From: Paragorgia papillata
Lineage: Eukaryota; Cnidaria; Anthozoa; Scleralcyonacea; Coralliidae
Length of the DNA stretch: 64,000 bases
Reading direction: 5' to 3'
NCBI GenBank assembly: GCA_035771165.1
Contig: JAWNZC010000106.1
Location: forward strand, 1,621,501 to 1,685,500
Below the pieces are notes generated by a model, which saw only the letters and a program-made list of their open reading frames with translations, was not told the origin of the DNA and ran no database searches. Shown here piece after piece: positions 3,013 to 58,671 of this stretch; position 1 is the stretch's first letter; every line of letters begins with the position of its first letter. The position numbers were made by a program, and so were the translations under genes.

Positions 3013-3661
3013 TTAAAGAGTGTGAAATCTTCTAAATTGATTGAGGAACATGTCAGCATACAGATAATACTCTTCTTAAAACAGAACTTGGTGTATTTTT
3101 GACATTGACAAATACATTCTTCAAATGTTTCACGCCAGTAGTCTGATCTATAAAGCAAGTCAAAGGCAAAGTGTCTGTTGCCAGTCTTTTACTTGCATCA
3201 AGTTTCCATTCTTATAGCAACACATATTAAAATACAGCAACAAAGCCTAGTCAAACGATACAAATTACCAATCTAACTGCTTGAGGTATTCTCTTTTCAG
3301 AGTTTATCCAAGCACTTCAGGTTAGGCCCATTTTTTTTGTCAGATTGAGTTTTTATATCTAAAATTGGTCAGGATCCCCTTAGCAGTAGCCGGGTACAAA
3401 TGGGGGTGGCCAAGGGCTGGTCTGAGCCAGGGCCGTCCTCAGAACATTTTGCTGGGGGGGGGGGGGGGTAGTAGGTAACCTGCATCTATAGAACACCTAG
3501 TCAAAATTGAGCCAGCGCTCTGACCATGTGTATTTGAGTAAAGCGGTAATTCCTGTGCGTGCGCATGTCGCCCGGAAATACGTTTTTGAATAGAGAAACC
3601 GGTTTTTGACAAGTATGGTTGTTGTCAGACAATGGTTCAAATGAATAAAGAAGATGTTTAA

Positions 3662-4466
3662 AGTGTCACTGAGACGAAAAATCGTCAGTCTTTTTCTGAT
3701 ATCATCATAAAGTAGATTTGAAATGAGGATGAACGGCGTTTGTGGTTTGTAAATATCTCATCTCGTTCAAGAGATATTCACGTTTTTGAAATATGCGAAT
3801 TATATGGCTGATGACGTCATGTACTCCAAACGAGCGAAATGAAAATCGTAAAATTAGGAATATCTCTAGAAATAAACAATAGAAAGTGCTCAAATTTTGC
3901 ATGCTTATAGTATTAAATAAAATACGTTTCACTGTGGAACTTTAGTTGTTTTCGTGGAAACTGCTGGTTCCTGGCCCCATCCAATGATAAAATTAAATTT
4001 TCTTATTTATCAGCAATCAAGTAGCGTTTACTCCAGCGAATAAATGTGACGATTAGGGCTTATGTTGGCATTGTAATTCAAACGTTTAAATCTATCTATT
4101 TTTAAACAATGAGGCAAAAATGATAACTCCCTTTTTAAGGTTTAGAGTAACCTGAGAGCATGCGCTTACCATGGCAATCACAAAAGCTCCACAGAGAAGT
4201 GTATTTTATTAGATACTATAAGCATACAAAGTTTAAGCACGTTCTATTGTTTATTTCCAGAGATATTCCTTATTTTACGATTTTCATTTCGCTCGTTTGG
4301 AGTACATGACGTCTCAGCCATAAATTTGCATATTGCCAAAACGTGAATATCTCTTGACTGACGAGATGAGATATTGACAAACCACAAACGCCGTTCACCC
4401 TCATTTTAAATGTACTTTATGATAAGATCAAAAAAAGACTGACGATTTTTTCGTCTTAGTGACACT
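3662..4466. mobile_element. TTAA-flanked foldback MITE inside the left arm
   Basis: AGTGTCACTGAGACGAAAAA at 3662 is mirrored by a near-identical inverted copy ending at 4466. TTAA flanks both sides (3658-3661 and 4467-4470). The right arm keeps the unoccupied site (13537-13540), which fixes the duplication as TTAA and shows insertion into one arm after the arms existed. The two halves form one long palindrome with no transposase. Confidence 0.92.
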
Positions 4467-4555
4467 TTAATGAAACAAACGTGAAATGCTTACGGTCACT
4501 GTTTATTTAGTAAGTGTGTTTGTGAACTGGTTGAAGAAATGTCGTAAAGAGAAGC

Positions 4556-4915
4556 ATGACTCATCTGTTTGAGCAAATGTATGTCGATGAAGTTGATTTT
4601 GAAGACATTCTAACTTTTGAGCAGATTATTGATCTCATTTCTTCCGAGTTTGTCCATCGACAAATTGAACAGCTGGAGGAGCTAGCGTCATGTTGGAAGG
4701 AAACCGAGGAGGTGGATGGTAATCAATGGACGACCATGAGAGAGCCTTGTGAAGTTTCTGATGAAGATTATCGTTGGATGGCCCACACAGACAAAGCTAT
4801 TTCAATGATTGACCGTGAAGATATTTGGAGGGCAATCGTTGAGGCCTGCAGAATTTTATCGTTTCCTAGTCTGTCCACTGTTGCAGACAATATTTTGACA
4901 GCTTATTTAATCTGA
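4556..4915 (+). CDS. Small acidic protein of the left arm (119 aa, C-terminus shifted)
   Basis: Unrecognised family. The predicted protein is acidic and has no transmembrane segment or catalytic motif that I can see. Start ATG at 4556 is preceded by an A-rich leader. An AATAAA signal follows at about 5042. The same gene lies in the other arm at 12988-13451. The arm copies agree closely up to residue about 104. There the right copy has one extra base and stays open for about 45 further codons to just before the shared polyA signal, whereas this copy stops early. The longer C-terminus is probably ancestral, so this copy is likely truncated by a 1-bp deletion. Conservation of frame through the shared part suggests a real gene. 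A role in the element's own propagation or host interaction is only a guess. Confidence 0.5.
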   Translation: MTHLFEQMYVDEVDFEDILTFEQIIDLISSEFVHRQIEQLEELASCWKETEEVDGNQWTTMREPCEVSDEDYRWMAHTDKAISMIDREDIWRAIVEACRILSFPSLSTVADNILTAYLI

Positions 4916-5778
4916 GTTGGTTTGTGTGGTCTAAGTTGTACGCTAAGACCGAAAGAACAATGAACATTAATAACTTACTGGACTATATAACGTGTGCTTG
5001 TAAACTTAAGTACCATTCAACTGTGTAATTAAAATTGTGTGAATAAAAATGTTTTTTTAAAAACCTAAAGCATTGGTCTACTTTCTTCACACTATACATT
5101 GTTACTTGTGGTGACAGTGGTGTACGGTTTAGAGAAAATTTCCAAATGGGGGCTTGTTATAGCAGATCACAAAATGACAGAGCCAAGAGAAATAAAAACC
5201 ATAACAGACAGAAAACGTTTAGAGTCGGTGTTACCTTTGGTCGTAACGATTTAAATGTAGAGGGCCGTCATCTGTAAATGGGGTATAATAGAATGGTTAT
5301 CCAAATTGACACTGGAGAATCCGTAATATTGTTTCATTCCAAATATGGCGCAACAAATTAATAAAAGAATAAGTCTGGCGGTACACTGTGAACGACGTTT
5401 GAAAATTGCGCCATTCAGACAAAAGTGAAGGAACTGTCTTTGTAAATAGATGTATGAATAAGTTACAGAGGGAAATTAATTACCTGTCAAATGACTTTTG
5501 TTTCCTGTGCAATTTCATTTGTTTTACTTTTATATATTTATATTGTACACTGTATGATGCGAACGTGTTAATTAGGCACAATTTATGTTCGCATTTGCTC
5601 CTTGAACTCGTATTTAAGTTATCATTGAATTCCCTACGTCCCTTTCGTGACTTTATGTCTTTCTAGGGAGTCCAGAAAACTCGATGTTTCCTAAGGTGCC
5701 AGTCAGCATATGCTGTAAGGGATTACTTAATCACAAAGATCGTACTAATAATTAAACTGTTTAATTAAAAGTTAAATG
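4916..5778. other. 3' flank of the acidic gene, no clear gene
   Basis: Contains the AATAAA signal at about 5042 and AT-rich sequence shared with the right arm (about 12240-12990). The 86-codon frame at 5406-5666 is Phe/Leu/Cys-rich and is not kept open in the other arm, so I do not call it. Confidence 0.5.
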
Positions 5779-6482
5779 ATTAAATAACACAACTTGTGTT
5801 TTAAAATGGGTTTATTTTGTAGATTGACTTATGAACGCACAAACAATTATTATTCTGTCCCCGTGTTCATGTTACCCATAACGGTTTTGTATTGGTTTAT
5901 TGGCAAAGAAAGAACACCAATTATAAATATCTGACTGTGGGGTTTCAAGTGTTAGGTTAAGTGCTATAATTGTTTATGTGTGTTTAATATTTTGTGTACT
6001 AAAAGAAATGATCAAATGAAACGCTCTGAAAGGTGATATGATTTACCATTTTATAAAAACGTTTAAGAATATCTTACTGTGTATTTTTAAGATAAGAAAA
6101 GTCATTAACATGAATTAAGTTAAAAGCCGTTAATAGGTGTTTATGTTAATCTTGATGAATATTTTTAACGTCAAACACGTCGATTTACATCATTAAGGCC
6201 TGTGGTAACCGACGTATTTTTCATGCACCGTATATGAATAGGTGAATTAAGTTCATTATTCATGACTAAACGGTCTTCTGGAACTGGTGTTTAGTATTTT
6301 ACTCTTGTTAACACCAGACGGTTTTACTCATTAAGGGGTATATTGCGTCTCACGCGTGTTAATAATGTTACACGTGTAATAAACGCTGCCGTGAATCGTG
6401 ATGCATTGTTTGATTGGACATGCACACTCTCGTAAATATTTTTTAACAGACAATATAGATCTCCGAACAAAATCCATATGCG
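5779..6482. repeat. Partial direct duplication inside the left arm
   Basis: The start (5779-5897) repeats at 6483-6600, which includes the 3' end of the C2HC gene. The end (6391-6482) repeats at 7562-7658. The middle (5898-6390) is unlike the C2HC gene between the second pair. Two units with common ends and different centres thus lie head to tail. The right arm shows the same order inverted (11400-12230). Confidence 0.7.
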
Positions 6483-6553
6483 ATTAAATAACACAACTTG
6501 TGTTTTAAAATGGATTTATTTTGTAGATTGACTTATGAACGCACAAACAATTA

Positions 6554-7460
6554 TTAATATGTCCCCGTGTTAATGTTACCCATAACGGTTTTGTATCCCA
6601 ACATTCGTTGTAGAAGGAATTTTCTTTGATTTATAGCCGCATTTATACTTTCATCTTCATTGTAGCCTTCTTTATCCATTAAACGTTTCATTGTTTTCAT
6701 AATTTTCTTGTGGATGCTGTCACGTTGAAGCTCCTTTACTAATCGAATGTACTTTTTGTATGTTTTTGCCATTTCTCTGGTATATTCTGGAACCAACGTA
6801 GCGTAGGCATGTTTCATAGCTTCGTCAACAGTAATGTTGTTTTCTTGCATTGTTTTTTTCGACCAAAGCATTTCGTTTAGGATCCACCTTTACAAAAACT
6901 TCATTTAATATATATTCCCAGAGTGTGTCGTTTTCTTCATCTTCCTCGCATTCGGACTCTTCAGAATGTTCGCTAGTACTTTCCTCATCGATGGACAAGT
7001 TGTCTTCCGTCGGCGATATACTGTTTTCTTCTTCCGTCGACAATATGCTGTTTTCTTCGTCTGTACAAGAGTCGTCTTCTCCATCTTCCTCCGACTCATT
7101 GCTATTTTCTTCATCGCTGTATGCATCCGTACTTTCATTAGTACAAGCGTTGTCTTCTCCATCTTCCTCCGACTCATTGCTATTTTCTTCATCGCTGTAT
7201 GCATCCGTACTTTCATTAGTACAAGCGTTGTCTTCTCCATCTTCCTCCGACTCATTGCTATTTTTTTCATCGTTGTATGCATCCGTACTTTCATCCTCCA
7301 TCACTACATCCTTATGCTTATCTATATCGTATGCTCCCTTTGAAATGTCACCTTGTTCCACCAGAAGCGGATAATCACAACGGATGGCTTGATGTCGTCT
7401 TACGTTATACGCAGACGAAAAACGCTTCATACACTGGTTACACTGATAACAATTACCCAT
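6554..7460 (-). pseudogene. C2HC-finger protein with acidic repeats, frameshifted
   Basis: Start ATG at 7458-7460. An N-terminal finger, CNQCMKRFSSAYNVRRHQ, is completed by a downstream Cys (C-x2-C-x12-H-x4-C). An Asp/Glu/Ser-rich region follows with three copies of a 26-residue unit (core STDAYSDEENSNESEEDGED), then further acidic sequence. The last third is basic and helical and reads in the +1 frame (6871-6554). The shift falls at an A7 run near 6850; one base fewer would join the frames. From general familiarity, cnidarian genomes hold many proteins with an N-terminal finger, acidic middle and a C-terminal stretch of this kind; exact relatives need a search. The break may be real decay or a homopolymer error. 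The acidic tract suggests a transcriptional or histone-binding role, which is only inference. Confidence 0.65.
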
Positions 7461-7660
7461 ACTATCACCAACAAAAATTGAGGAGAAATGAAAAAACTAG
7501 CAGAGAGAAATGACTACTGTATATATTACAATCTATTGCCTAGTTAACATGTTGTACAAAAACGCTGCCGTGAATCGTGATGCATTGTTTGATTGGACAT
7601 GGACACTCGTAATTTTTTTTTAACAGGCAATATAGATCTCCGAACAAAATCCATATGCGA

Positions 7661-8145
7661 ATTTTGCTCATTATGTTCTCATTTTGCTCATCATGCTTGC
7701 GCATTTTGCTCATTCACATTCGCATTATGCTCATTCACATTCGCATTATGCTCATTCACATTCGCATTATGCTCATTCACATTCGCATTATGCTCATTCA
7801 CATTCGCATTTTGCTCATTACGTGCGCATTGTGCTCATTTACAGTCGCATTGTGCTCATTCACATTCTCATTATGCTCATTAAGTGCGCATTGTGCTCAT
7901 TTACATTCGCATTGTGCTCATAACACTCGCGTAGTTTGCTCATTACGTGCGCATTGTGCTCATTTACAGTCGCATTGTGCTCATTCACTTCTCATTATGC
8001 TCATTAAGTGCGCATTGTGCTCATTTACATTCGCATTGTGCTCATTTACATTCGCATTGTGATCATTTACATTCGCATTGTGCTCATGTACATTCGCATT
8101 GTGCTAATTTACATTCGCATTGTGCTCATTTACATTCGCATTGTC
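7661..8145 (+). repeat. 21-bp iteron array, left arm
   Basis: About 20 head-to-tail units, mostly 21 bp, around GCATTATGCTCATTCACATTC. Variants have TTTACA or TTACGTGC in the spacer and G for A in TTATGC. The open frames across it read repeating Ser-His-Tyr-Ala-His or Leu-Cys-Ser-Phe in every register, as expected of a repeat whose length is a multiple of three, so no protein is implied. The inverted counterpart is at 10241-10870. Confidence 0.9.
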
Positions 8146-8361
8146 GGTTCCTGGGGACTTAAGGGACGTAAGGTTTGTCTGTCTATCTATCTGAGTCCCG
8201 GGGGGCGTAAGGGACGCAAGGGAGCGCGCTTCCAGACACTTTACTGAAATTCGAGACAGAAACAAAAGTGTGTAAATATAAAATAATCGCTTTAATTTTG
8301 GTTAGAGCAGATTTCAAATACATTTGAGTTCATTTCAATACAGTTACATGATGTATCTTAT

Positions 8362-8829
8362 TCAGTCAATCTGTATCACTTCTGGTACTGTCATTTCTAC
8401 AGGTTTGTTTCCACTTGTCGCTGTTGTAGACACAGAAGTTTCTCTTTTTATAGATGTCCGGGTAAATGTTCTAACGTTTTTAGTGCCCATCACCTTCACT
8501 ATTCTCTCATTTCTTCTTTTTCCACCTTTCATTTTCCTAGTCTGCCGCTTTTTCTTCTTTTTTGGCTCTTCCTCCTTTACAGTCAACTTCAAATCAGCAT
8601 CAAAATAAACAATTTTGTGTAAATCACTGGGTTTAACTTCATCATTCCCAACATATGTTCTTAAGTAGCTTGCACCAACAATATTCGGATATCCTTTCTT
8701 GACTACTTCGAAAATCACTTCTTTGCTATCAACTCCTGTTCTTAGACAACGGAGCCTTAAAACATTGTTATAAAGCACTTCACGCAAAACAAATGGTGGA
8801 ACATTACAAGCATTACTCATTGAAGTCAT
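8362..8829 (-). CDS. Small protein with very basic tail, spacer gene 1
   Basis: Unrecognised. The frame is open from 8874, but the first ATG is at 8827-8829, with a second at 8818-8820. This gives about 155 aa. Residues 1-85 look globular, with Leu/Val-rich helices and a Y-N-N-V-L-R-L-R motif. A lysine/arginine cluster (KKKKKRQTRKMKGGKRRNER) follows, then a Thr/Ser-rich tail. The basic cluster would suit nuclear import or nucleic-acid binding, and small basic DNA-packaging proteins are common in DNA viruses; this is inference. It lies in the unique spacer and is read divergently from 9211-9489. A TATTTTATACC stretch at 8885-8895 could hold its promoter. Confidence 0.55.
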   Translation of the reverse strand: MTSMSNACNVPPFVLREVLYNNVLRLRCLRTGVDSKEVIFEVVKKGYPNIVGASYLRTYVGNDEVKPSDLHKIVYFDADLKLTVKEEEPKKKKKRQTRKMKGGKRRNERIVKVMGTKNVRTFTRTSIKRETSVSTTATSGNKPVEMTVPEVIQID

Positions 8830-9210
8830 GTTTGTCTCCAAATGACAACTAGCAAAATAACTGACTGTTTTCAACTACCGCCCCTATATTTTATACCGTT
8901 TGAAAATGTCAAACAGGAAAAAAACGTGTTATGGTTTTATTCATTATGTTAATTGAAAATTAGTATATTACAAACCGGTTATATATCGCATGCAATAAAA
9001 GTTTAATCCCTACTTTGTAATGTGGTAATATTTGCACGGCAGCTGGACCAAACGAGAACGAGAATATTTTGCTAAAGACTGGCCCCGACCAAGGTTCGAC
9101 TAACTAGTTTAAGTAAACAAATTCGGTACGTTTTTCTTTTGGTGTTATGCTGAGGTATCTTTATGCATGTGCTACGTTGACTGTACTGATTATTTTTTTC
9201 TGAATAAAAG
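8830..9210. promoter_or_regulatory. Divergent intergenic region of the spacer
   Basis: About 380 bases lie between the two outward-reading spacer genes. The TATATTTTATACC stretch near 8884-8896 is placed for minus-strand transcription. AT-rich sequence and TGAATAAAAG lie just before the plus-strand ATG. No repeats or other genes are seen. Confidence 0.35.
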
Positions 9211-9489
9211 ATGGATCTGAAGATGTTAATCAATGATTGTACAACTGAAGAAGAACTGGCATTTTTAGAAGAAATGTTTGTATTTAACGAGGAACAAGAA
9301 CAAGCAGCTCTCATCCACCGCTTGGATTTGCTGAACGTTGAATACTATCTTATCCAGTCAAAATCCTGTGAAGAATATTTGTGTCCCGAACTCATGTCAG
9401 GGTGGATCGAACAAGACATTCTTAATTTTGTAATAGAATGGGATAACGAATTGCCATCAAACTTTAGTCTGCCCTGTAATTCTTCATAA
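9211..9489 (+). CDS. Small acidic protein, spacer gene 2 (92 aa)
   Basis: Unrecognised. ATG at 9211 follows AAAAG. The product is rich in Glu, Asp and Leu, with a likely N-terminal helical pair (TTEEELAFLEEMFVF) and no membrane segment. AATAAA signals occur downstream at about 9570 and 9616. Size and charge resemble the arm gene at 4556, and both contain short Leu/Glu helices, but I see no convincing residue alignment. It is in the part of the element that is not duplicated. Confidence 0.5.
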   Translation: MDLKMLINDCTTEEELAFLEEMFVFNEEQEQAALIHRLDLLNVEYYLIQSKSCEEYLCPELMSGWIEQDILNFVIEWDNELPSNFSLPCNSS

Positions 9490-10035
9490 TCTGACAACTC
9501 AGGATTGCATTTTACATGTAAGAGGAAGATTATTGTGTCAACAATTTTTGTAATAAGGATGTATGGTCTAATAAAATATAACACGGAAATATATTGAATG
9601 TTTGGAATTTTTTTTAAATAAAGATTCTCCCTGTGCATGCTACACAAGATTGGTACTAAACCTCTATGTACCATTAGATGTATATTTCCATTAGAACATA
9701 TTGGAACACTTTTGTTGACATATAAAAATTTGAAACTGCAGGATGCGAATAAAAAGTACAGGTTATATCTGAATGAGCAAATATATGAGCAAAGGAGCAC
9801 AATTGCGCACGTACAATGACAAAAGTTCATTGACGCGCGCTCTAGAAGATATTTTCAAGACACATTTTTACATTGAAAAAGTTTTTCTCTTCAAACTTTT
9901 CTGTTGTAAGTTTTTAATTTCATCACATGTTCATACAAAACTAGTTAATTTTCTTTTACCTGGAACTTTTATGTAAAAGTTAGCACGTTTCCAAATTTTG
10001 TATCGTACACGTTTTTTATTTTTATCCAAAAACAA
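9490..10035. other. Spacer 3' region, no clear gene
   Basis: Holds polyadenylation signals for the plus-strand spacer gene and AT-rich sequence. The 161-codon minus frame at 9345-9830 overlaps the 9211-9489 gene antisense and has no features of its own. Confidence 0.4.
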
Positions 10036-10240
10036 ATCATGTAACTGTATTGAAATGAACTCAAATGTTTTTGAAATCTGCTCTAAGCAAAATTAAAGTG
10101 ATTATTTTATATTTACACACTTTTGTTTCTGTCTCGAATTTCAGTAAAGTGTCTGGAAGCGCGCTCCCTTACGTCCCTTACACCCCCCGGGACTCAGATA
10201 GATAGACAAACCTTACGTCCCTTAAGTCCCCGGGAACCGA

Positions 10241-10870
10241 CAATGCGAATGTTAATGAGCACAATGCGAATGTAAATGAGCACAATGCACACTCAATGAG
10301 CATAGTGCGAATGTGAATGAGCACAATGCGACTGTAAATGAGCACAATGCGCACGTAATGAGCAAACTACGCGAATGTTATGAGCACAATGCGAATGTAA
10401 ATGAGCACAATGCACACTCAATGAGCATAATGCGAATGTGAATGAGCACAATGCGACTGTAAATGAGCACAATGTGAATGTAAATGAACAAAGTACTCGA
10501 GTGTTATGAGCAAAATGCGAATGTGAATGAGCACAATGCACACTCAATGAGCATAATGCGAATGTGAATGAGCACAATGCGTACTCAATGAGCATAATGC
10601 GAATGTGAATGAGCACAATGCGCACGTAATGAGCAAACTACGCGAGTGTCATGAGCACAATGCGCACGTAATGAGCAAAATGCGAATGTGAATGAGCATA
10701 ATGCGAATATGAATGAGCATAATGCGAATATGAATGAGCAAAATGCGAATGTGAATGAGCATAATGCGAATATGAATGAGCAAAATACGCACGCAATGAG
10801 CATAATGCGAATGTGAATGAGCAAAATGCGCAAGCATGATGAGCAAAATGAGAACATAACGAGCAAAATT
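10241..10870 (-). repeat. 21-bp iteron array, right arm
   Basis: The reverse-complement counterpart of the 7661-8145 array, read as GAATGTGAATGAGCATAATGC units, with more units and a different order of variants. TTACGTGCGCATTGTGCTCAT-type units recur at intervals. The copy-number difference indicates independent expansion or contraction in each arm. Confidence 0.9.
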
Positions 10871-11065
10871 CGCATATGGGTTTTGTTCGGAGATCTATAT
10901 TGCCTGTTAAAAAATTTACGAGAGTGTGCATGTCCAATCAAACAATGCATCACGATTCGCTGCAGCGTTTTTGTACCACATGTTAACTAAGGCAATAGAT
11001 TGTAATATATAGTCATTTCTCTCTCCTAGTTTTTTCATTTCTCCTCAATTTTTGCTGGTGATAGT

Positions 11066-11431
11066 ATGGGTAATTGTTATCAGTGTAACCAGTGTATGAA
11101 GCGTTTTTCGTCTGCGTATAACGTAAGACGACATCAAGCCATCTGATGTGATTATCCGCTTCTGGTGGAACAAGGTGACATTTCAGATATTTCAGAGGGA
11201 GGATACGATATAGATAAGCATAACGATGTAGTGATGGAGAATGAAAGTACGGATGCCTACAACGATGAAAAAAATAGCAATGAGTCGGAGGAAGATGGAG
11301 AAGACGACTCGTGTACTAATGAAAGTACGGATGCATACAGTGATGAAGAAAATAGCAATGAGTCGGAGGAAGATGGAGAAGACGACTCTTGTACAGACGA
11401 TAAGTCAATCTACAAAATAAATCCATTTTAA
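11066..11431 (+). pseudogene. Deleted C2HC-finger gene of the right arm
   Basis: Starts with the same ATG and finger as 7460-6554. An in-frame TGA replaces the Arg codon just after the finger, at about 11143. There are two 26-residue acidic units instead of three. A deletion then joins the acidic region directly to the 3' flank near 11400, removing the C-terminal third. Confidence 0.82.
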
Positions 11432-12987
11432 AACACAAGTTGTGTTATTTAATCGCATATGGATTTTGTTCGGAGATCTATATTGTCTGTTAAAAAATAT
11501 TTACGAGAGTGTGCATGTCCAATCAAACAATGCATCACGATTCACGGCAGCGTTTATTACACGTGTAACATTATTAACACGCGTGGGACGCAATATACCC
11601 CTTAATGAGTAAAACCGTCTGGTGTTAACAAGAGTAAAATACTAAACACCAGTTTCAGAAGACCGTTTAGTCACGAATAATGAACTTAATTCACCTATTC
11701 ATATACGGCTCCTGAAAAATACGTCGTTTATCACAGGCCTTAATGATGTAAATCGACGTGTTTGACGTTAAAAAAATTCATCAAGATTAACGTAAACACT
11801 TATTAACGGCTTTTAACTTAATTCATGTTAATGACTTTTCTTATCTTAAAAATACACAGTCAGATATTCTTAAACGTTTTTATAAAATGGTAAATGATAT
11901 CACATTTTATCAAACATATATAAATAATTATAGTACTTAACCTAACACTTGAAGCCTACGTCAGATATTCTTAAACGTTTTTATAAAATGGTAAATTATA
12001 TAACCTTTCAGAGCGTTTCATTTGATCATTTCTTTTAGTACACAAAATATTAAACACACATAAACAATTATAGCAATTGACCTAACACTTGAAACAACAC
12101 AGTCAGATATTTATAATTAGTGTTCTTTCTTTGCCAATAAACTAATACAAAACCGTTATGGGTAACATGAACACGGGGACAGAATAATAATAATTGTTTA
12201 ATTTTAAAACACAAGTTGTGTTATTTAATCATTTAACTTTTAATTAAACAGTTGAATTATTAGTACGATCTTTGTCATTAAGTTATCCCTTACAGCATAT
12301 CCTGACTGGCGCCTTAGGAAACATCAAGTTTTCTGGACTCCCTAGAAAGACATAAAGTCACGAAAGGGAAGTAGGGAATTCAATGATAACTTAAATACGA
12401 GTTCAAGGAGCAAATGCGAACATAAATTGTGTCTAATTAACACGTTCGTATCATACAGTGTACAATATAAATATATATAAAAGTAAAACAAATGAAATTG
12501 TACAGGAAACAAAATTAATTTGACAGGTAATTAATTTTCCCTTGTAACTTATTTCATAAACGCTTCAATGATCTTTGCTTCGAGTTCTATTTACAAAGAC
12601 AGTTTGAATACAATTTTCAAACGTCGTTCACAATGTACCGCCAGACTTGTTCTTTTATTAATTTGTTGCGCCATATTTGGAATAAAACAATATTACGGAT
12701 TCTCCAGTGTCAATTTGGATAACCATTCTATTATACCCCATTTACAGATGACCTTCTACATTTAAATCGTTACGACCAAAGGTAACACCGATTCTAAACA
12801 TTTTCTGTCTGTTATGGTTTTTATTTCTCTTGGCTCTGTCATTTTGTGATTTGCTATAACAAGCCCCCATTTGGAAATGTTCTCTAAACCGTACACCACT
12901 GTCACCACAAGCAACAATGTATAGTATGAAGAAGGTAGAGCAATGCTTTAGGGTTTTAAAAAAACATTTTTATTCACACAATTTTAA

Positions 12988-13451
12988 TTACACAGTTGAA
13001 TGGTACTTACAAGCACACGTTATATAGTCCAGTAAGTTATTAATGTTCATTGTTCTTTCGGTTTCATCGCACAACTTAGACCACACAAACCAACTCAGAT
13101 TAAATAAGCTGTCAAAATATTGTCTGCATAAAGTGGACGGACTAGGAAACGATAAAATTCTGCAGGCCTCAACGATTGCCCTCCAAATATCTTCACAGTC
13201 AATCATTGAAATAGCTTTGTCTGTGTAGGCCATCCAACGATAATCTTCATCAGAAACTTCACAAAGCTCTCTCATGGTCGTCCATTGATTACCATCCACC
13301 TCCTCGGTCTCCTTGCAACATGACGCTAGCTCCCCCAGCTGTTCAATTTGTCGATGGACAAACTCGGAAGAAACGAGATCAATAATCTGCTCAAAAGTTA
13401 GAATGTCTTCAAAATCAACTTTATCGACATTTGCTCAAACTGATGTGTCAT
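12988..13451 (-). pseudogene. Acidic small gene of the right arm, frameshifted near its start
   Basis: Counterpart of 4556-4915. The ATG at 13449-13451 is kept, but a 2-base deletion about ten codons later ends the frame early. The downstream part is intact and runs about 45 codons further than the left copy, ending just before the shared AATAAA signal near 12970. The lesions in the two arms are in different places. Confidence 0.75.
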
Positions 13452-13924
13452 GCTTCTCTTTACGACATTTCTTCAACCAGATCACAAACACACTTACTAA
13501 ATAAACAGTGACCATAAGCATTTCACGTTTGTTTCATTAAACATCTTCTTTATTCATTTGAACCATTGTCTGACAACAACCATACTTGTCAAAAACCGGT
13601 TTCTCTATTCAAAAACGTATTTCTGGTCGATATGCGCGTCCACAGGAATTACCGCTTTACTCAAATACACATGGTCAGAGCGCTGGCTCAATTTTGACTA
13701 GGTGTTCTATAGATGCAGGTTACCTACTTGGGGTTGTACGCTCAATTTTGGTGACTGCTACATAATTGTCACTCATCAGTACTATTTCTCGCCGCTGGTG
13801 GGTATCGACTACTGACTGAAATCTCTTGTCTGACGACTATAGAACAAATATAGCAATTCTTGGGGGTGTCACTCCCCCCCCCCCCCCCTCATGCACTCTC
13901 TGTAGCTCCGGCCCTGGTCAGAGT

Positions 13925-14587
13925 GCATGTCTCAGATGTGTTTGCCTTTGTCCTGAGCAGTAAAATGTTCAACTGTTCAAGTTGGCTGATTATTAATGGC
14001 AGTTTCTTAGTTGCTTAAATAACTGAAAACATATTACAGTATATAGAATTATAATATTATAATTATAAATGTTCTTCATAAATTTAGGCAAATTTGTGCC
14101 ATGTTTCTTGTTTGTTTATAATTGTGAGCTATGCGAATTAGAATAATCAGAACTTCAGGCATGCTGATTGGATAGCATTCTGAATTTATAATTGAATAAC
14201 ACACAAACGTAAATAGGCATCGCTTTACAGATATCCCATCCATCACATTGTGCTTTCAAAAAGCTCAAAATTTTAGTATATAAATCAATAATCACGATTG
14301 CCAACACCCCTCACCTTCAAAGTATACATTATCCGATAATATTTAGCATGGGTGCCTGCCTGTAACAAAAAATGCCATCAAAAGTAATATTTTGAAGCCT
14401 TGGCCAGCCCTCTATGAAATTTTAATTTAGCACCCCCACCCCACCCCACCCCCACCTCCTCCTCCTCCACGCACCCCCTAGTGTCCGCCACTGAGTGAAT
14501 GAATGCCTGACCAGGTGTCTTGTTTTTAATTTCCTAATAGAAGAAGTCTTAAACGAACACTTACTGGAGTGAAACTATTCAAGTGTG
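13925..14587. other. Intergenic, with a hAT-like right end
   Basis: Bases 14430-14494 form a C-rich tract ending CTAGTGTCCGCCACTG. This matches the right terminus of the hAT MITE at 44521-45040. No matching left end is seen nearby, so it is a fragment or solo end. An upstream finger fragment in another frame lies at about 14545-14594. Confidence 0.5.
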
Positions 14588-15469
14588 ATGTCTGTGACAA
14601 AACATTCATTTGAATGTGATATATGTGCCAGAATATTCTCCAATTCAAGCCACTTACTGCGTCATAAAAGTACACATGCTGGAGAGAAACCCTTTATGTG
14701 TGATATCTGTGACAAGAGATTTTCTCGGTCAAGCCACTTAATACGCCATAAAAGAATACATACTGGAGAGGAGCCATACACGTGTGATGTCTGTGACAAG
14801 ACATTTAACCAGTCAACAGGCTTACTATATCATAAAACAACACACACTGGCATAAAACCCTTTATCTGTGATATCTGTGACAAGAGATTTTCTCGGTCAA
14901 GCCACTTAATACGTCATAAAAGAATACATACTGGAGAGGAGCCATACAAGTGTGATGTCTGTGACAAGACATTTAACCAGTCCACAGGCTTACTATATCA
15001 TAAAACAACACACACTGGCATAAAACCCTTTATCTGTGATATCTGTGACAAGAGATTTTCTCGGTCAAGCCACTTAATACGTCATAAAAGAATACATACT
15101 GGAGAGGAGCCATACAAGTGTGATGTCTGTGACAAGACATTTAACCAGTCCACAGGCTTACTATATCATAAAACAACACACACTGGCATAAAACCCTTTA
15201 TCTGTGGTATCTGTGACAAGACATTTTCTCGGTCAAGCCACTTAATACGTCATAAAAGAATACATACTGGAGAGAAGCCATTCAAGTGTGATGTCTGCAA
15301 CAAGGCATTTAACAAGTCAAGAAGCTTACTATATCATAAAAGAACACATACAAGTGAAAAACCATTCATATGTGATAACTGTAACAAACGTTTTTCGCAG
15401 CTACGCTATTTAGTACATCATAAAATAAATATATGTACTGGTATTGGAGAAAATCTTCCAAGTATATAA
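14588..15469 (+). CDS. Tandem C2H2 zinc-finger protein, modular two-finger array
   Basis: A predicted nuclear DNA-binding protein of about 293 aa. It contains nine canonical C2H2 fingers joined by TG(E/I)(K/E)P linkers, plus a last finger whose second His is replaced (H-x5-C). Fingers 2 to 8 are built from a 56-residue, 168-bp module. One finger has helix RSSHLIR and the other QSTGLLY; the copies are almost identical, so the expansion is recent. The first ATG lies within a partial finger in another frame (14545-14594), which suggests that a deletion removed an upstream finger. The true start may instead be in an unseen 5' exon. A TTTTTAATTTCCTAATAG stretch at about 14523-14541 looks like a splice acceptor. 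No KRAB, BTB or SCAN domain is seen. Confidence 0.72.
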   Translation: MSVTKHSFECDICARIFSNSSHLLRHKSTHAGEKPFMCDICDKRFSRSSHLIRHKRIHTGEEPYTCDVCDKTFNQSTGLLYHKTTHTGIKPFICDICDKRFSRSSHLIRHKRIHTGEEPYKCDVCDKTFNQSTGLLYHKTTHTGIKPFICDICDKRFSRSSHLIRHKRIHTGEEPYKCDVCDKTFNQSTGLLYHKTTHTGIKPFICGICDKTFSRSSHLIRHKRIHTGEKPFKCDVCNKAFNKSRSLLYHKRTHTSEKPFICDNCNKRFSQLRYLVHHKINICTGIGENLPSI

Positions 15470-31149: not shown

Positions 31150-31893
<744 letters not shown>

Positions 31894-36227: not shown

Positions 36228-37145
36228 CTAACCAGTACCACCCGAATGGACATTAGTCACATGACTTACTAAACCAGTGACTAAGTCAAATCTGGCATCA
36301 CATTGTAAACATATGTACTCCATTCCAGTTGGTTCTGTGGCTTCTAGTTCATGGGTCAACAGATGACGGTCAAATGATTTGAAATCAATAGTCATGTTGC
36401 AATAACAACATGGGAAATCCCTTTCTTCAACGTGAGTTCTTTGGTGATATTGTAAGGTATGTGACAGGGAAAATGTTTTGTCACAGATATCACACTTAAA
36501 TGGTTTCTCTCCAGTATGTGTTCTTTTATGACACACTAAGTGATTTGACTGGGAAAATGTCTTATCACAAGTATCACATTTAAATGGTTTCTCCCTAGTA
36601 TGTATTCTTTTATGACGTCGTAAGTTACCCAACTGACAAAATGCCTTGTCACAGATATCACATTTGAAAGACTTTATTCCAGTATGTGTTCTTTTATGAT
36701 ATAGCAAGTTACCTGTCTGAGAAAATGTCTTGCCACATAAATCACACTTAAATGGTCTCTCTCCAGTATGCGTTCTTTTATGATTTACTAAGTCTACTGA
36801 CTGAGAAAATGTCTTGTCACAGACATCACACTTCAATGGTTTTTCCCCAGTATGAGTATTTCTATGACGATTTAAGGACAACATATAGGAAAATGACTTA
36901 TCACACATATCACATTTGAATGGTTTTTCTCCAGTATGACACCTCTGATGACATTTCAAATTTGATAATTGAGTAAATGTCTTATCACAGACAACACACT
37001 TGAATGATTTCTCGCCGGTATGTACAGCCATATGACGTTTCAAACTTGATAAACAACCGAATGTCTTGTCGCAGGTTGAACACCAGTAAGACTTTTCTCC
37101 AGTTGTGTGATTTCCTTTAGTTATTAAGTCAGTTTCTTCACTCAT
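36228..37145 (-). CDS. Ten-finger C2H2 zinc-finger protein, intact
   Basis: A predicted sequence-specific DNA-binding nuclear protein of 305 aa. The ATG at 37143-37145 has a plausible start context and the same leader type as the broken paralogue at 31893. After about 20 N-terminal residues come eight regular fingers with TGEKP-type linkers. A ninth (CCYCNMTIDFKSFDRHLLTH) has an atypical linker, and a tenth after a 20-residue gap has H-x4-H spacing. The C-terminus ends SGGTG. No KRAB or other effector domain is present. The finger helices differ from one another, unlike the clone-like array at 14588. No stop or shift is seen, so this is the best candidate for a functional gene in the window. 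Unseen 5' exons are possible. Confidence 0.85.
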   Translation of the reverse strand: MSEETDLITKGNHTTGEKSYWCSTCDKTFGCLSSLKRHMAVHTGEKSFKCVVCDKTFTQLSNLKCHQRCHTGEKPFKCDMCDKSFSYMLSLNRHRNTHTGEKPLKCDVCDKTFSQSVDLVNHKRTHTGERPFKCDLCGKTFSQTGNLLYHKRTHTGIKSFKCDICDKAFCQLGNLRRHKRIHTREKPFKCDTCDKTFSQSNHLVCHKRTHTGEKPFKCDICDKTFSLSHTLQYHQRTHVEERDFPCCYCNMTIDFKSFDRHLLTHELEATEPTGMEYICLQCDARFDLVTGLVSHVTNVHSGGTG

Positions 37146-37549
37146 TGTGGCTCCTTCACGTTTCAGACAACTCTTGGTCTTAAGTTTATATTAATTTCCG
37201 CCTGTACTGCCATAGCCATTCGCTTGAGATTGAACAAAATTTCAATACGAAGGACCTTGATGTAGATTCGCTAATCCAGCAAAAACATACCACAATTTAT
37301 CAGCGACAGTTTGAAATATAAAACAAAGCGACACCGAAACATTTAAGGTACATAATTCCAGTGTCTTGACGAACTTCAGAAGTCTTCTGCTCGGACGACA
37401 ACTATAGCTACCAGAATGCATTTCGACTGTAACTTTGTTTACATGTTAATCACAATAAGTATCCCGTGTTCTCTTGGCAATTTATAAATGATGCATGCAT
37501 TCAACACCGTGAAGAAGATTTCGTGGGAGGAAGTCTCTCTCCTCCGCAG
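37146..37549. promoter_or_regulatory. Probable 5' region of the ten-finger gene
   Basis: About 400 bases upstream of the ATG. Bases 37160-37175 share GTTTCAGACA with the upstream of the broken paralogue (31920). No TATA box stands out. Confidence 0.35.
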
Positions 37550-53339: not shown

Positions 53340-54134
53340 CGAGGAACTCGTCCATTTCGTGTATGAGAATAACTACTTATTGACCGAGCGTGAGGTCTGT
53401 ACTAGTGAAATATCGGACCGATGTTTTTTTAGTACGAAAAATATTTCACTAGTACAGACCGAACAAGCGAGGTCAATAAGTAGTTTATTATATGGCCATA
53501 AATGTTGTGAACGTTCTGTGAAACTGACTCGACCCATCACCCATCTTTCTTGCGAACTAAACGAAAATGGGAAACATTTTCCCATTTTTAAAGTACTTTC
53601 CGTTGAGCTAGAATCCTAAAATTTCTACCCCAAATAGTATTTTTCAATTGCTTTTGTTTGACATATTGCTCAAGATCGTACGTTAAGTAGTTGAATAAGA
53701 AATCATCTGAAATTCTAATACTTGTGAGAAGTAAATGTATATTATTACGAACAATGTTATGAACGTTTTGAACATTTAAAAAACTTTCACAAAACGTGGA
53801 AACTCGAACTATACATCACATGAAAGCTTATAAAATTTCTAACAACATACCTGCACGATATATTTCAACAATGAGTAGTTCTGAAATTATAATCCATCTT
53901 GTTGCATATACTGACATGACTGCCATTTTGTTTATAAAACTTACCGTCCCGAATGGCAGATTCCGCTCTGAGCGGGCGGATACGGGAAATATCCGACCGC
54001 TTATGAACCAATCAAATTACAGGATTTCCGTATTCGGACCTCTCAGCGCTGCTGCCATATAATAAAGACTTTTATTAACTATAACATCTCATCAAAGAAT
54101 GATGAGAGAACTATAAAATGTGAACACATGTAAA
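53340..54134 (-). repeat. Left (3') LTR of the Gypsy element, interrupted
   Basis: Bases 54064-54134 match 58747-58820 (GTTCTCTCATCATTCTTTGA region on the minus strand). Bases 53340-53365 match the next LTR stretch at 58719-58744 (GGAACTCGTCCATTTCGTGT). About 700 bases between the two, holding a palindrome at 53376-53485, are absent from the right LTR and look like an insertion. Confidence 0.6.
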
Positions 54135-57100
54135 CTCTTGTCCCATTTGGTAGGATGTGGACCGATCTGGTTCTGGATCCGCACATGGTTACCAACTACC
54201 AGTGGTGGGAGTCTCCTAGTGTGTTCTGTCCATCTCTCTGCTGTCTTCATGTGTCTGTTCCTTAGGGCTTCCTCTCGGGCGGCTAGCGTGTCTCTCCAGG
54301 TGGGATGGGGCCTGTAGCGGCCAGGTATGATGGGTATGAAATATTTGATTGGTCTTCCAAATACGCACTGGACTGGAGACAGCTTCGTGTCGGGGTCTGG
54401 AGTATTGCGGTACTGGAGTATGGCGCGTTGTAGTGCGTCTGTGTCAAGACTGCCATTTGGGCTGGTGTTGTTGGTGATGAGTCGTTTGACAGCTTTCACG
54501 CCGACTTCTGCCATGCAGTTTGAATGGGGAAATGCCACGGATGACAGTCGGTGGTGTACTCCCCACTCCTTTAAGAATTGGCGTGTGTTGGCTGCTGTGA
54601 ACTCGGGACCACCGTCTGTTGCACACTCATCTGGGATACCAAATGTCACAAATGTGCGTCGCAAGCAGTTAATGAGGCCCTTTGCACCCTCATGTGCCCG
54701 TTCGATGATGGGCCAATTGGAGTATCGGTCTACCACAACAAGGTAGTTCACTGTAGTGGAAGAAGTCGGCACACACGTACTGGAAGGGATATGCTGGTGG
54801 CATAGGTGGTGAGGGAGGGACATTGGGTTGTGAAGGTGCCATGCGATTGCAGCAGTTGCAGTTTCCCCGCAAGGCTTTAATGGCTGAAGTGATGCCTGGC
54901 CAGAACACGGTTGTTTCTGCACGTGCGGTCATGGAGGTTACACCCTGGTGTGCGGAGTGGAGTACAGTCAGAACATGTTGCCGGAGTGAGGGTGGTATGA
55001 CGATGCGGTCCTTGTAGAGGATGACACCGTCCACTGTGTATAGGTGCTCACGGAATTGGTAGTACTCATGGAGTGTTGGTGGCAGCTCGTGTCGAGACTC
55101 AGGGAAGCCCGATTCGATGATGAAGACTAGCTGGACCATCTCTTTGTTGTTTGTTGTTGCCAGCTTGACTCTGTCCCATGTTATTGCCATAGTGCTCAGT
55201 GCTGAAGAAGCAGATGATGTCAGTTGGTCGTTAATAGTAGAGGAGTAGGATGGTGATGGACGCTCTTCACAGCGAATGCCAGCCAAAAAGGAGCGTCTAA
55301 TGGTGGCAAGTGGGGGTGGGATGACTAAATCACTGTTGGTTGCTACATCGTCTGATAAGATGAGTTTTTCTGGATTTTCTGGCCCGGTGGGGTGGCGGGA
55401 AACTTCGTCGGCCGCTTTGTGTCTCACACCAGGAATGTGTACCATTCCGAATCTGTAGCGTAGCGTCTTCTCTTTGAGGTTACGAAGCCTGGCGTTGGAG
55501 ATATCCTCGAGGTTTCGATCGCCAAGCACCTTGAGCAAGGGCTTGTGGTCCATCGCGATGATTAGGTCACTGCAGCCCAGGACGAAGAATCTGGCTTTGT
55601 CTAAGGCGTCGGCTACGGCGAGGGCCTCTCCCTCAACTTGGGCAAAGCGTGACTCTGCAGCGTAGGTGAAGCGGCTCCCTACGAGTGTTGTTTTCCAACC
55701 TGTGGGGCAGCAGAAGGGCTCGGTGGATGTGCATTGGCAGTGCTTTTGGAAGAGCCAGTATCCAATGCCAGTTTTTGACCAATCCGTGGCTAGGCAGGTT
55801 GGCTTAGATTTGTCGAAGATGCGGACTCCCTCCTCGATCTCGCCGATGATCACTGACTTGGATTCTTCGAAGACCTGGTTGAGTTTGTCGTCCCAGAGGA
55901 ATGGCGTTCCAGATCTGAGTAACTGACGGAACGGTAGCATGCGCTCTGTTGCGGCAAATGCGTATGACACCTGGTTGATGAGGCCGAACCAGGAGCGCAC
56001 GTCTGTTATGTTTGCTGGCTTTGGGAAGTTACGGATGGCGTCGAGGTACTTCTTGCATGGTCGCACGTTGTTAGTGGTGATCTAGAATCCCGCGAATTCG
56101 ACGGTGTCTTGGCCAAATGCAAACTTCTCGTGGTTGAGTGTGATGCCATGGCGACCGCAGATGTCGAGCCAATCAACTGCCTGGTAAAAGCTTGCGGTGA
56201 GGTTGTCTGCCCATAGAAGTGTGTCGTCGATGCACTTGGTTTTGTTCGGGATGTGAGAGACAATCTCATCAAATCGTCTCGAGTAACCGTCGCCTGATGC
56301 TATGTAGCCCTGAGGTGCGGTCTTGTATCGGTATCGTCCCCATGGGGTTATGAACGTGGTGAGGTGGCAGTCATCTGCATGGAGTGGAACGCTGTGGTAG
56401 CCATTCCAGCAGTCGAATACGGTCTTGTTTTTACCGTGTGGTATAGAGCGAACTTGGTGGAATGGGCTCTGTGTGTGGTGGGTCTCGCGTGTTGCGTGGG
56501 CGTTGAGTGCCTGGAAGTCCACTGTGCGTCGGGGTTTGCCATTCTTCTTTGCGTACACCACCATACGGTGGCACCATGTTACAGGCTCTCCCACTGGAAC
56601 TTGTTCGAGGACACCCAGCAACACATCCTGGTCAAGACCGGCCTTGACATCATTTTGCCAGTGGAGTGGTACTGGGATGGGGTTGTGGTGGGCGACGGGC
56701 TCCGCGTTGGGGTCGACCATGAGTCTCATAGGGGTACCCTCCATCAGTGGTGGTGGCTGGTGCTCACACGTGTTGAATGTACTTGATCTGTAGTAGTCCA
56801 GAAGCCATTGTTGCAGGCGCTTCCTATTAGCCTCGGTTGCTGGGAAGGATAGTTGAGTCGGCTTGGTTGGTGGTGCTTGGCGGCGTGGGCAGTTGCATGG
56901 TGCCGTGAGTGCACTCTCGGGTGTAGGCGATACAGCGTTTGTGTTGCTTTGTTCGGTCGTATCAGGCTCTATGTCTGGCTCCATCTCTGTGCTCACTTGA
57001 AGGGCTTCACCCACAGTGGGGACGTTATCGGAGATCATGCCTTGTGCCATACAGGCCTCTCGACTCCGGAACAGTTTGTTGGAATCTCTTGTTACGTAAG

Positions 57101-57782
57101 TGATTTGTCGAGTTTCAAGGGTCTGTCCGGATTTGGATCTGCCAGAAAATCTTATGATGGCGGCGCCGAGGATCTTAATGCCGTTGTTGTTTACGGCGTA
57201 CATGTGCATTGTAACCGGAATCAGATCCTTCTCACGTAGGCCAAGGCATTGGATCACTTGCATGCTCGCTAGGCAGCTCTGACAGCCGGTGTCAGCCATG
57301 GCAGATAGTCGTGTTGTCTTTGGTTGGGAGGTAACAAGCTTCATTCCAAGAGCTGCATAGTCCTCCGGGCGGATTGTGGCTGTTAGTGCAAGGAATGGTT
57401 GAGGTTTGGATATTTGACGGACCCATCGGTCATTGAGGTGGTTGTACAGGTGATGATCTAGTGAGATGGCGTGTCTGTCTGGATCCCGGGTGGGACTGGT
57501 TGTGGTGCAGAGGACATCAAAGATGGCGCCTTCAGTCTCTCTAGTAGCACCACTGGGGTGGGTTTGTTGTCGTTTTCTTGTGTTGTCCTTGCTTCGGCAC
57601 ACTGCTTCAAAGTGGTTGGCTCGACCGCAATGATCGCATGTCTTTCCGTACGCGGGGCAGTCACTCTTCCTTACCTTTGGTGGAGCGTTTTTTTCATGGC
57701 CGCGCTTGCCACAATATGAACATGTTTCATTTTTATTGTCAGATTGGCGGTTTTTGAGCTCCTCCTGTTTGCCACGGCGGTA
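54092..57782 (-). pseudogene. Gypsy pol, interrupted by a stop and a frameshift
   Basis: From the gag stop: two CCHC-like knuckles (the first lacks its last Cys), then protease with ADTGCQS at about 57290. Reverse transcriptase follows with a CIDDTLLW active site near 56240. An in-frame TAG after EFAGF (56082) interrupts it; the frame simply continues (NNVRPCKKYL). RNase H has LATDWSKTGIGYWL and VEGEALAVADALDKA. The integrase N-terminal HHCC runs from HSAHQ to CNCC. A frameshift at about 54750-54780 separates CADFF, the first catalytic Asp, from the rest, which has ATDGGPEF and [13 protein letters not shown] for the second Asp and the Glu. All catalytic residues are present. Confidence 0.88.
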
Positions 57783-58511
57783 TTAACTGCGGGTAGCATC
57801 AGCTCCCTGGGTTTCTAAGAGGTGTCCAGCAGATCTTTTACCAGCCTCTTTCGCTTCGATGAACTGAAATGCTTCTTCCAAGGTCATGTCTTGGTTCTTG
57901 TCACCAAGTAAGTCCAATTGGATTTCACTGTCGGCAAGGCCACGTGTTAGGGCGTCCCGGAGGATGGTATCGGTGTAGTTCACCTCTGCATCACAGCCAT
58001 GGCAATTGGTAATAAATTTACAGACACCAGCTTGCCCACGTAAGCGTGCGCCAAAACTGCGTATTGTTTCATCTCTGTCTTGTCGCATGTTGTGGAGTTG
58101 CACGCGAGGGACCATTGTGTTTTCCTCTCGCACAGCAAGTTTTTTTATTGCCATCATCACTTCGTCTACACTTTTGTTGGTGAGTGAGCCACCGGCATTC
58201 CGTGTAAGGTCTTTACGGAGTTGTTCGTCACAACATTCGAGCAGTTGTATTACTTTGTCTGTACCTGTCACTTTTGTGGCCTCAGTATAGTCCTGCCAGC
58301 GGGTAACGAAGTAGGACCATTCTTCACTTGATCCTGCAGCAGACAGCTTGACCCTCTCAGTCTTGGCTGTTGTGAATGTTGGTGCAGGAGTGTTTGTTGG
58401 AGCAGTGTGTGTGCCCGTAGAGTGGACCTGAACCAATACAGCAGCGAGTGCATCTGTGACGTCTTCCGTTTCGTAAGTGCAGTCGGGAAATGGGCACTTG
58501 TAGTTTGGCAT
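57783..58511 (-). CDS. Gypsy gag (242 aa)
   Basis: ATG at 58509-58511. It opens with a finger-like MPNYKCPFPDCTYETED. A capsid-type helical region follows (EEWSYFVTRWQDYTEAT, VIQLLECCDEQLRKDL, VQLHNMRQDRDETIRSFGAR). It ends at a TAA. The frame then continues open without shift into the CCHC knuckles (CSYCGKRGH, CDHCGRANHFEAVC) and pol. The product would form the particle coat. The TAA may be a mutation or a read-through point. Confidence 0.82.
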   Translation of the reverse strand: MPNYKCPFPDCTYETEDVTDALAAVLVQVHSTGTHTAPTNTPAPTFTTAKTERVKLSAAGSSEEWSYFVTRWQDYTEATKVTGTDKVIQLLECCDEQLRKDLTRNAGGSLTNKSVDEVMMAIKKLAVREENTMVPRVQLHNMRQDRDETIRSFGARLRGQAGVCKFITNCHGCDAEVNYTDTILRDALTRGLADSEIQLDLLGDKNQDMTLEEAFQFIEAKEAGKRSAGHLLETQGADATRS

Positions 58512-58671
58512 CGTTGTGCTGTTTCTCGAGTTTCTTTATGGCTTTGAAGTTGAGTTTTGTTTTACCAAGTTAAAACAACTTTACAAAATCCAAGATGGCG
58601 GCCGAGTCGGAGATTGAATTTCCTGTTGTTTTGCCAAGTTTTAACGAAGAAAGAAGGTTGTCGCCAACTTT

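Follow-up and report, generated by a model that had tools for sequence, protein, structure and literature searches.

A palindromic element in the genome of Paragorgia papillata, probably a copy-back derivative of a Polinton/Maverick

How does a mobile element come to consist largely of two inverted copies of the same DNA? The question is raised by an element at 3470–13728 of a 64,000-nucleotide stretch of the Paragorgia papillata genome (the window, whose numbering we use; it lies on contig C106 of the 617.9-Mb, 473-contig assembly that we searched). An earlier note on this DNA had described a single element made up mostly of inverted repeats, and inverted arms do account for about 84% of its length, around a 1.68-kb loop. 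We conclude that the element is probably a non-autonomous derivative of a Polinton/Maverick, made by copying back one end of its parent; most parental genes would have been lost in the process. Below, C numbers denote contigs and L numbers loci cut out of them.

Architecture of the palindrome

The element starts with AGTAGGTAACC and ends with the reverse complement of that sequence, GGTTACCTACT. Its parts are as follows.

3464–3469, unstranded: left copy of the target-site duplication, GGGGGT (read from the sequence)
3470–13728, unstranded: whole element, 10,259 bp
3470–8359, plus strand: left arm, including a TTAA-flanked insert (inverted-repeat comparison)
3662–4466, unstranded: insert of 805 bp resembling a miniature inverted-repeat transposable element (MITE), in the left arm only, with TTAA at 3658–3661 and 4467–4470
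7700–8144, plus strand: 21-bp tandem array of the left arm, about 21 copies
8360–10037, unstranded: loop, a single-copy stretch that is unbroken with the left arm in relatives without the right junction
10037–10038, unstranded: derived junction between parent-like loop DNA and the inverted arm, with two shared bases (AT)
10038–13728, minus strand: right arm, the inverted copy (inverted-repeat comparison)
10240–10830, minus strand: 21-bp tandem array of the right arm, about 28 copies
13729–13734, unstranded: right copy of the target-site duplication, TGGGGT (read from the sequence)

In a self-comparison, 91 inverted-repeat pairs (the 25 longest displayed) join 3470–8359 with about 10029–13728. 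The longest block spans 508 bp at 97% identity, and the outermost, 3470–3661 against 13537–13728, is also 97% identical. The iteron array in each arm lies where the earlier note had placed it; its two arms of about 4 kb are in fact unequal, at 4.9 kb on the left and 3.7 kb on the right, and the right arm has a deletion of about 0.5 kb that removed the end of gene C.

The right arm presents an empty site at the position equivalent to the 805-bp insert, so the insert most likely arrived after the palindrome had formed. With the insert and its duplication subtracted, the element measures 9,450 bp. The insert is itself repetitive, with at least about 40 near-identical places (the best 40 or so of 924 candidates). 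At two places on C455 (L002 and L003), the left flank of the element, its initial 190 bp and the MITE are present with about 99% identity (window 3043–4470), and the element DNA beyond the MITE is missing.

Mirror-image reads joined to themselves are a known error of long-read assemblies and could imitate such a structure. Here this origin is scarcely credible, and the sequence itself makes it unlikely, because the arms differ by 2–6% (94–98% identity in ungapped blocks outside the tandem arrays and the insert) and by large insertions and deletions, namely the 805-bp insert and the 0.5-kb deletion. In addition, the right junction is common to a sister copy on C95, and several palindromic relatives have flanks of their own.

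One widespread and one restricted junction

The two edges of the loop have different distributions. The left junction is unbroken in eight relatives (L010–L017), which align from about 8240 through genes D and E of the loop to 9469. Because these relatives run without a break from the arm into D and E, we take the left junction, from its sequence, to be ancestral. The right junction, probed with 9930–10130, is crossed by only two of the 30 candidates, all of which were scored: the window and C95. Of the remainder, three (C406, C11 and C351) resemble only the loop part of the probe and 25 only the arm part; two of the 25 are the left arms belonging to the window element and to C95. C406, C11 and C351 follow the window to 10037 and then diverge; the first two are near-identical and perhaps represent a single locus. 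Two further loci, L019 and L020, keep to the window sequence as far as 10025 before departing from it. At 10037 the window turns into the inverted arm, and the two sides of the break have AT in common.

The element thus has one ancestral and one derived junction, the combination that copying back of one end would leave. Given a left junction that is widespread and a right one found in two copies only, we favour copy-back or head-to-head duplication of one end before insertion. Of the two possibilities raised in the earlier note, an unnamed element class and a non-autonomous Polinton derivative whose gene block was duplicated, our results support the second and narrow it to one end copied back, with the break at 10037/10038.

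Ends and target-site duplications

The earlier note had drawn the link to Polintons from the ends and the GGGGGT/TGGGGT flanks alone. Both were found where it had placed them, and the link gains support from (AGT)2-like ends and 6-bp duplications across the family. With the terminal 191 bp as query, 40 places were scored of 211 candidates, and 30 were cut out as loci. AGTAG stands at the expected place in 22 of these, so the ends agree in most copies. The ends of relatives, such as AGTAGATAGG, AGTAGTATAG and AGTAGTAAGCC, are of the (AG)n or (AGT)2 type. Vertebrate Mavericks have (AG)3 or (AGT)2 ends and 6-bp duplications (PMC8097293).

Both ends could be read in 11 elements, excluding a second copy on C446 with the same flanks as the first. 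The 6-bp duplications are exact in nine and match at five of six bases in two. Seven of the exact cases have their ends at AGTAG: C3 (CATATA), C14 (GTTGTC), C452 (CTTGTG), C302 (CCGACG), C455 (TGGCTG), C320 (ACCGTC) and C321 (TATATA, itself a palindrome and therefore less telling). The other two, C446 (ATTCTC) and C339 (AATAAC), count as exact once mutations in the end bases are tolerated, their ends having been placed by eye. The five-of-six matches are C103 (ATTGTC/ATTGTG) and the window element, whose duplication differs at one base and adjoins a G run.

These flanks bear on the order of events. Inverted duplications are common chromosomal events, and the palindrome could in principle have arisen in place, after a normal element had inserted. 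The palindromic elements on C3, C14, C452, C455, C321 and C320 are bounded on the outside by exact 6-bp duplications, which makes an origin within the chromosome very unlikely; because the duplications lie outside the outer ends, we conclude that the palindrome predates insertion.

Other palindromes in the genome

Relatives of the element have broken at other points. On C321, arm position 369 is joined to 1399 with a 2-bp overlap, and on C455, position 777 is joined to 1217 with 33 bp between; both are flanked by the exact duplications given above. Palindromes with loops of 0.3–1.6 kb occur on C3, C14, C452, C100 and C446. On C9, the arms consist of gene C and the tandem array around gene D, without gene E, and C320 holds two successive palindromes (82936–89180 and 89296–101119), the arms of which are 99.2–99.7% identical.

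A gene for an A32-like ATPase, carried by long relatives (described below), is also mirrored. We scored 140 of 2298 candidate copies and used the 105 at 83% identity or more, of which 66 form 33 inverted pairs and 39 are unpaired. All 33 pairs are divergent, 355–4,091 bp apart. Both copies of a pair share the same kind of stop on C132 (TAA) and C340 (TAG), and only one copy has a stop on C140 and C285. On C320 alone is such a pair shown to form the arms of a whole palindromic element.

The best reading of these observations is that palindromic derivatives have formed repeatedly in this genome, because two relatives, those on C321 and C455, have breaks of their own, and the 33 inverted ATPase pairs point to the same habit in long relatives. 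A census of arms found both strands in 10 of 37 clusters; it used 49 hand-picked rows of 129, from 40 scored of 484 candidates, and a lone arm in it is no proof that a partner is absent.

In five arm pairs, arms of the same element show no regular tendency to resemble each other more than they resemble arms of other elements; those of the window are 96.6% identical to each other, against 97–98% to the best others. Given this irregular comparison and a four-sequence test that came out at 2:1:1, we do not claim that arms are homogenised.

Long relatives and the Polinton link

The earlier note had suggested a search for longer relatives with polymerase B and integrase. Two were read in part: one encloses an integrase that is possibly nested, the other has an A32-like ATPase, and polymerase B was not found in the parts read. 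The larger, at C320:69254–104767, is 35.5 kb long and has ends that are 98% alike over 301 bp. Gene A lies at the right end; genes D and E are present too, together with a gene for an ATPase that has a C2H2 finger at its N terminus. This ATPase matches the poxvirus A32 packaging family at E 4e-4, with 20.4 bits against a curated cut-off of 22.8. ATPases 78–80% identical to it have a polymerase B match within 5 kb at eight of 35 places, counting the 77 polymerase B candidates scored of 1631 in the genome; by the same count, three of the 33 ATPase pairs have such a match within 40 kb, 23–34 kb away. A retroviral-type integrase is absent from the window element and from the C320 frames. For capsid and protease, no Pfam match appeared among the 32 C320 frames, and no search was aimed at these genes.

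The second relative, on C302, is 27.6 kb long and is bounded by inverted ends that carry gene A and measure 1.5 and 1.4 kb. Its interior encodes an rve integrase (E 8e-9, above the cut-off) and a PriCT_2 primase domain (2.7e-9). By its ends the family belongs among Polintons; by its core genes it may do so.

Three side observations concern these relatives. PriCT_2 (PF08707) is abundant genome-wide (688 candidates, of which 150 were scored, all over the cut-off, mostly in frames of about 350–400 amino acids) and apparently belongs to another element family; this abundance makes it useless as a marker of the present one. On C320, a gene resembling tyrosine recombinases (90859–92076, or L071:4859–6076 on the minus strand; DUF3504, with a weak Phage_integrase match) lies in one arm only of the larger palindrome, within a 2-kb insert. 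Just outside the right end of the C320 element, at 105255–105500 (L072:9255–9500), is a sequence resembling the 21-bp array; the element may therefore have inserted into or beside a relative.

The long inverted repeats also recall Foldback/Galileo transposons, which move by cut and paste; those of Galileo are likewise long and contain tandem arrays (PMC3573991). The family studied here has 6-bp duplications and AGTAG ends, and its relatives carry an A32-like ATPase or an rve integrase. A P-type transposase was not seen in the frames scanned (window genes, C302 and C320), nor were P-type ends and duplications, and membership of this group is highly improbable.

Proposed origin and its weighing

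We hypothesize that, during replication of the parent, synthesis or joining would have begun at one end and passed through the terminal repeat, gene A, gene C, the array, gene D and gene E, halting at the base that matches 10037. It would then have resumed on a copy of the same end lying in the opposite sense, from the base equivalent to about 8357, and returned outwards, producing a linear palindrome with the same terminus at both ends. Both termini would presumably share a replication origin and an integrase site, and could be used equally. A Polinton integrase supplied in trans would have inserted the product, leaving the 6-bp duplication. The setting would be protein-primed replication; this mode, and movement on the proteins of full Polintons, are inferred from the known biology of the group (PMC6431247).

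In this sequence of events, we favour a switch by one nascent strand over the joining of two molecules. Alternatively, two broken linear copies, each with the same end, may have been joined head to head at unequal breaks by host repair and then inserted. The two shared bases at the window break and the 33 bp between the C455 arms fit such end joining as well as they fit a template switch; the many palindromes in one family would be better explained by a fault of replication. We regard end joining as unlikely, though far from negligible.

Several results weigh against copy-back of a Polinton end. Head-to-head joining of two broken molecules would leave an identical junction, the sister on C95 is truncated in its left arm, and the four-sequence test of homogenisation was split. 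Eight of the 30 end loci lack AGTAG, and the duplication of the window itself matches at only five of six bases, beside a G run. The A32 match on C320 falls below its cut-off, and polymerase B was not found in 33.4 of the 35.5 kb of C320 (32 frames of at least 95 amino acids) or in frames from 8.5 of the 27.6 kb of C302. The interior of C302 is resembled at 32 other places, at 73–82% identity; none of these has any of the 61 end positions, which came from searches scoring 40 of 211 and 40 of 262 candidates, closer than 40 kb. Because of this distribution, the C302 integrase may be part of a nested insertion from a different element family, a result that slightly lowered our confidence in copy-back, which we still consider probable.

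A further possibility is that palindromic Polintons form a lasting class, which replicates and inserts as equal-ended palindromes and spreads in trans on full Polintons, perhaps interfering with them. The junction shared with C95, the 33 ATPase pairs, and the serial palindromes and clean insertion on C320 keep this idea in play; we hold it tentatively and think it rather doubtful.

Genes of the element

The earlier note had assigned two small genes to each arm and two to the spacer. The open frames lie as it placed them; those of the arms resolve into gene A and one broken gene C, and those of the loop are genes D and E.

4556–4915, plus strand: gene A, left copy, 119 amino acids (open-reading-frame list and family comparison)
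6554–7460, minus strand: gene C, left copy, frameshifted, as frames 6825–7460 and 6554–6871
8362–8874, minus strand: gene D, a basic protein of 155 amino acids from a conserved Met
9211–9489, plus strand: gene E, 92 amino acids
11066–11431, plus strand: gene C, right copy, with an early stop after the finger (read by eye) and truncated at the deletion
12988–13451, minus strand: gene A, right copy, with a broken frame

As the earlier note had stated, no polymerase, integrase or ATPase is recognised: there is no Pfam match to these core Polinton genes among the genes of the window element. A PHROGs search gave only weak, chance-level matches, and relatives of the ATPase, gene A and gene C were not found in viral contigs.

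Gene A has eight relatives at 52–63% identity in a large protein set. The left copy is shorter than 11 other copies (157–167 amino acids), and a frame of at least 150 amino acids is kept in 11 of the 29 arm stretches compared. Among the 55 pairs of these 11 intact copies, the 14 with a synonymous divergence (dS) of at least 0.1 have a median ratio of nonsynonymous to synonymous divergence (dN/dS) of 0.34, with a range of 0.16–0.47. Gene C combines a C2H2-like finger (18.9 bits, below the Pfam cut-off of 25.2), acidic repeats and a helical C-terminal part. The site of its frameshift lies in one open frame in L026 and L036; queried with the natural frame from L036, it has five outside relatives, one of them with a Pfam finger.

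Gene D has no outside relatives at E 0.001, and constraint was not seen at the small distances available. For gene E, dN/dS is 0.25–0.36 in 15 of 16 comparisons, which represent 12 distinct places owing to overlap within three pairs of loci. Against the sister on C95 the value is 0.81. By this measure, gene E is under purifying selection across the family. The right-arm copies of genes A and C are both broken. As A and E are constrained in the family and window copies are broken or frameshifted, the window element is, judged by its reading frames, a degenerate copy from a family where selection acted on A and E.

Compared with the window, L010, L012, L014 and L015 have a dS of about 0.04 in gene D and about 0.4 in gene E, as if this block were a mosaic of two lineages. 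Predicted structures of gene A and of the gene C family were too poor for a fold search (predicted local distance difference test, pLDDT, of 51 and 47, respectively); in the latter, residues 121–160 alone average 76–92 per block.

Elsewhere in the window

Beyond the element, Gypsy-type-like frames (gag-like, zinc knuckle, reverse transcriptase and integrase) lie on the minus strand at 54092–58535, and frames with long C2H2 zinc-finger arrays at 14573–15469, 31359–31871 and 36228–37190, all recognised by eye.

Comparison with known systems

The element family resembles Polintons/Mavericks in its 6-bp target duplication, (AGT)2-like ends and inverted terminal repeats, and in having a larger relative with an A32-like ATPase and another enclosing an rve integrase. 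The window element differs from them in lacking any recognised core gene and in the length of its arms, 3.7–4.9 kb compared with terminal repeats of 46–1,447 bp in intact vertebrate Mavericks (PMC8097293). It shares very long, internally repetitive inverted repeats with Foldback/Galileo elements. These follow other end and duplication rules and use another transposase.

Polintons are thought to link transposons with adenovirus-like viruses. Daniell (1976) reportedly described long inverted terminal duplications among the genomes of incomplete adenovirus particles. Such genomes are left-end-enriched DNA of a protein-primed linear DNA virus (PMC12090768).

If palindromic Polintons are a lasting class, they may act on full Polintons as defective interfering genomes act on viruses. 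It can be tested whether Polintons produce linear palindromes outside the chromosomes and whether these keep their parents in check. To our knowledge, the replication step behind such junctions has not been seen directly for animal Polintons, and the junctions offer countable traces of how these elements replicate. Our literature search, in which subscription journals were thinly covered, found no title or abstract opening on palindromic Polintons among the papers listed.

The nearest published parallels that we found are the copy-back defective genomes of negative-strand RNA viruses and the left-end inverted duplications of cytomegalovirus. Copy-back genomes have the same topology, with one end copied back so that the ends are alike around a unique loop; the window element differs in being DNA, chromosomal and inherited. 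The cytomegalovirus cases (Towne and AD169) carry an inverted duplication from the left end and differ in being laboratory variants of a herpesvirus that keep most of the genome. RNA viruses are thus known to form copy-back genomes, and cultured DNA viruses to form mirror-end variants; the palindromes described here would be a chromosomal record of such events for an apparent Polinton.

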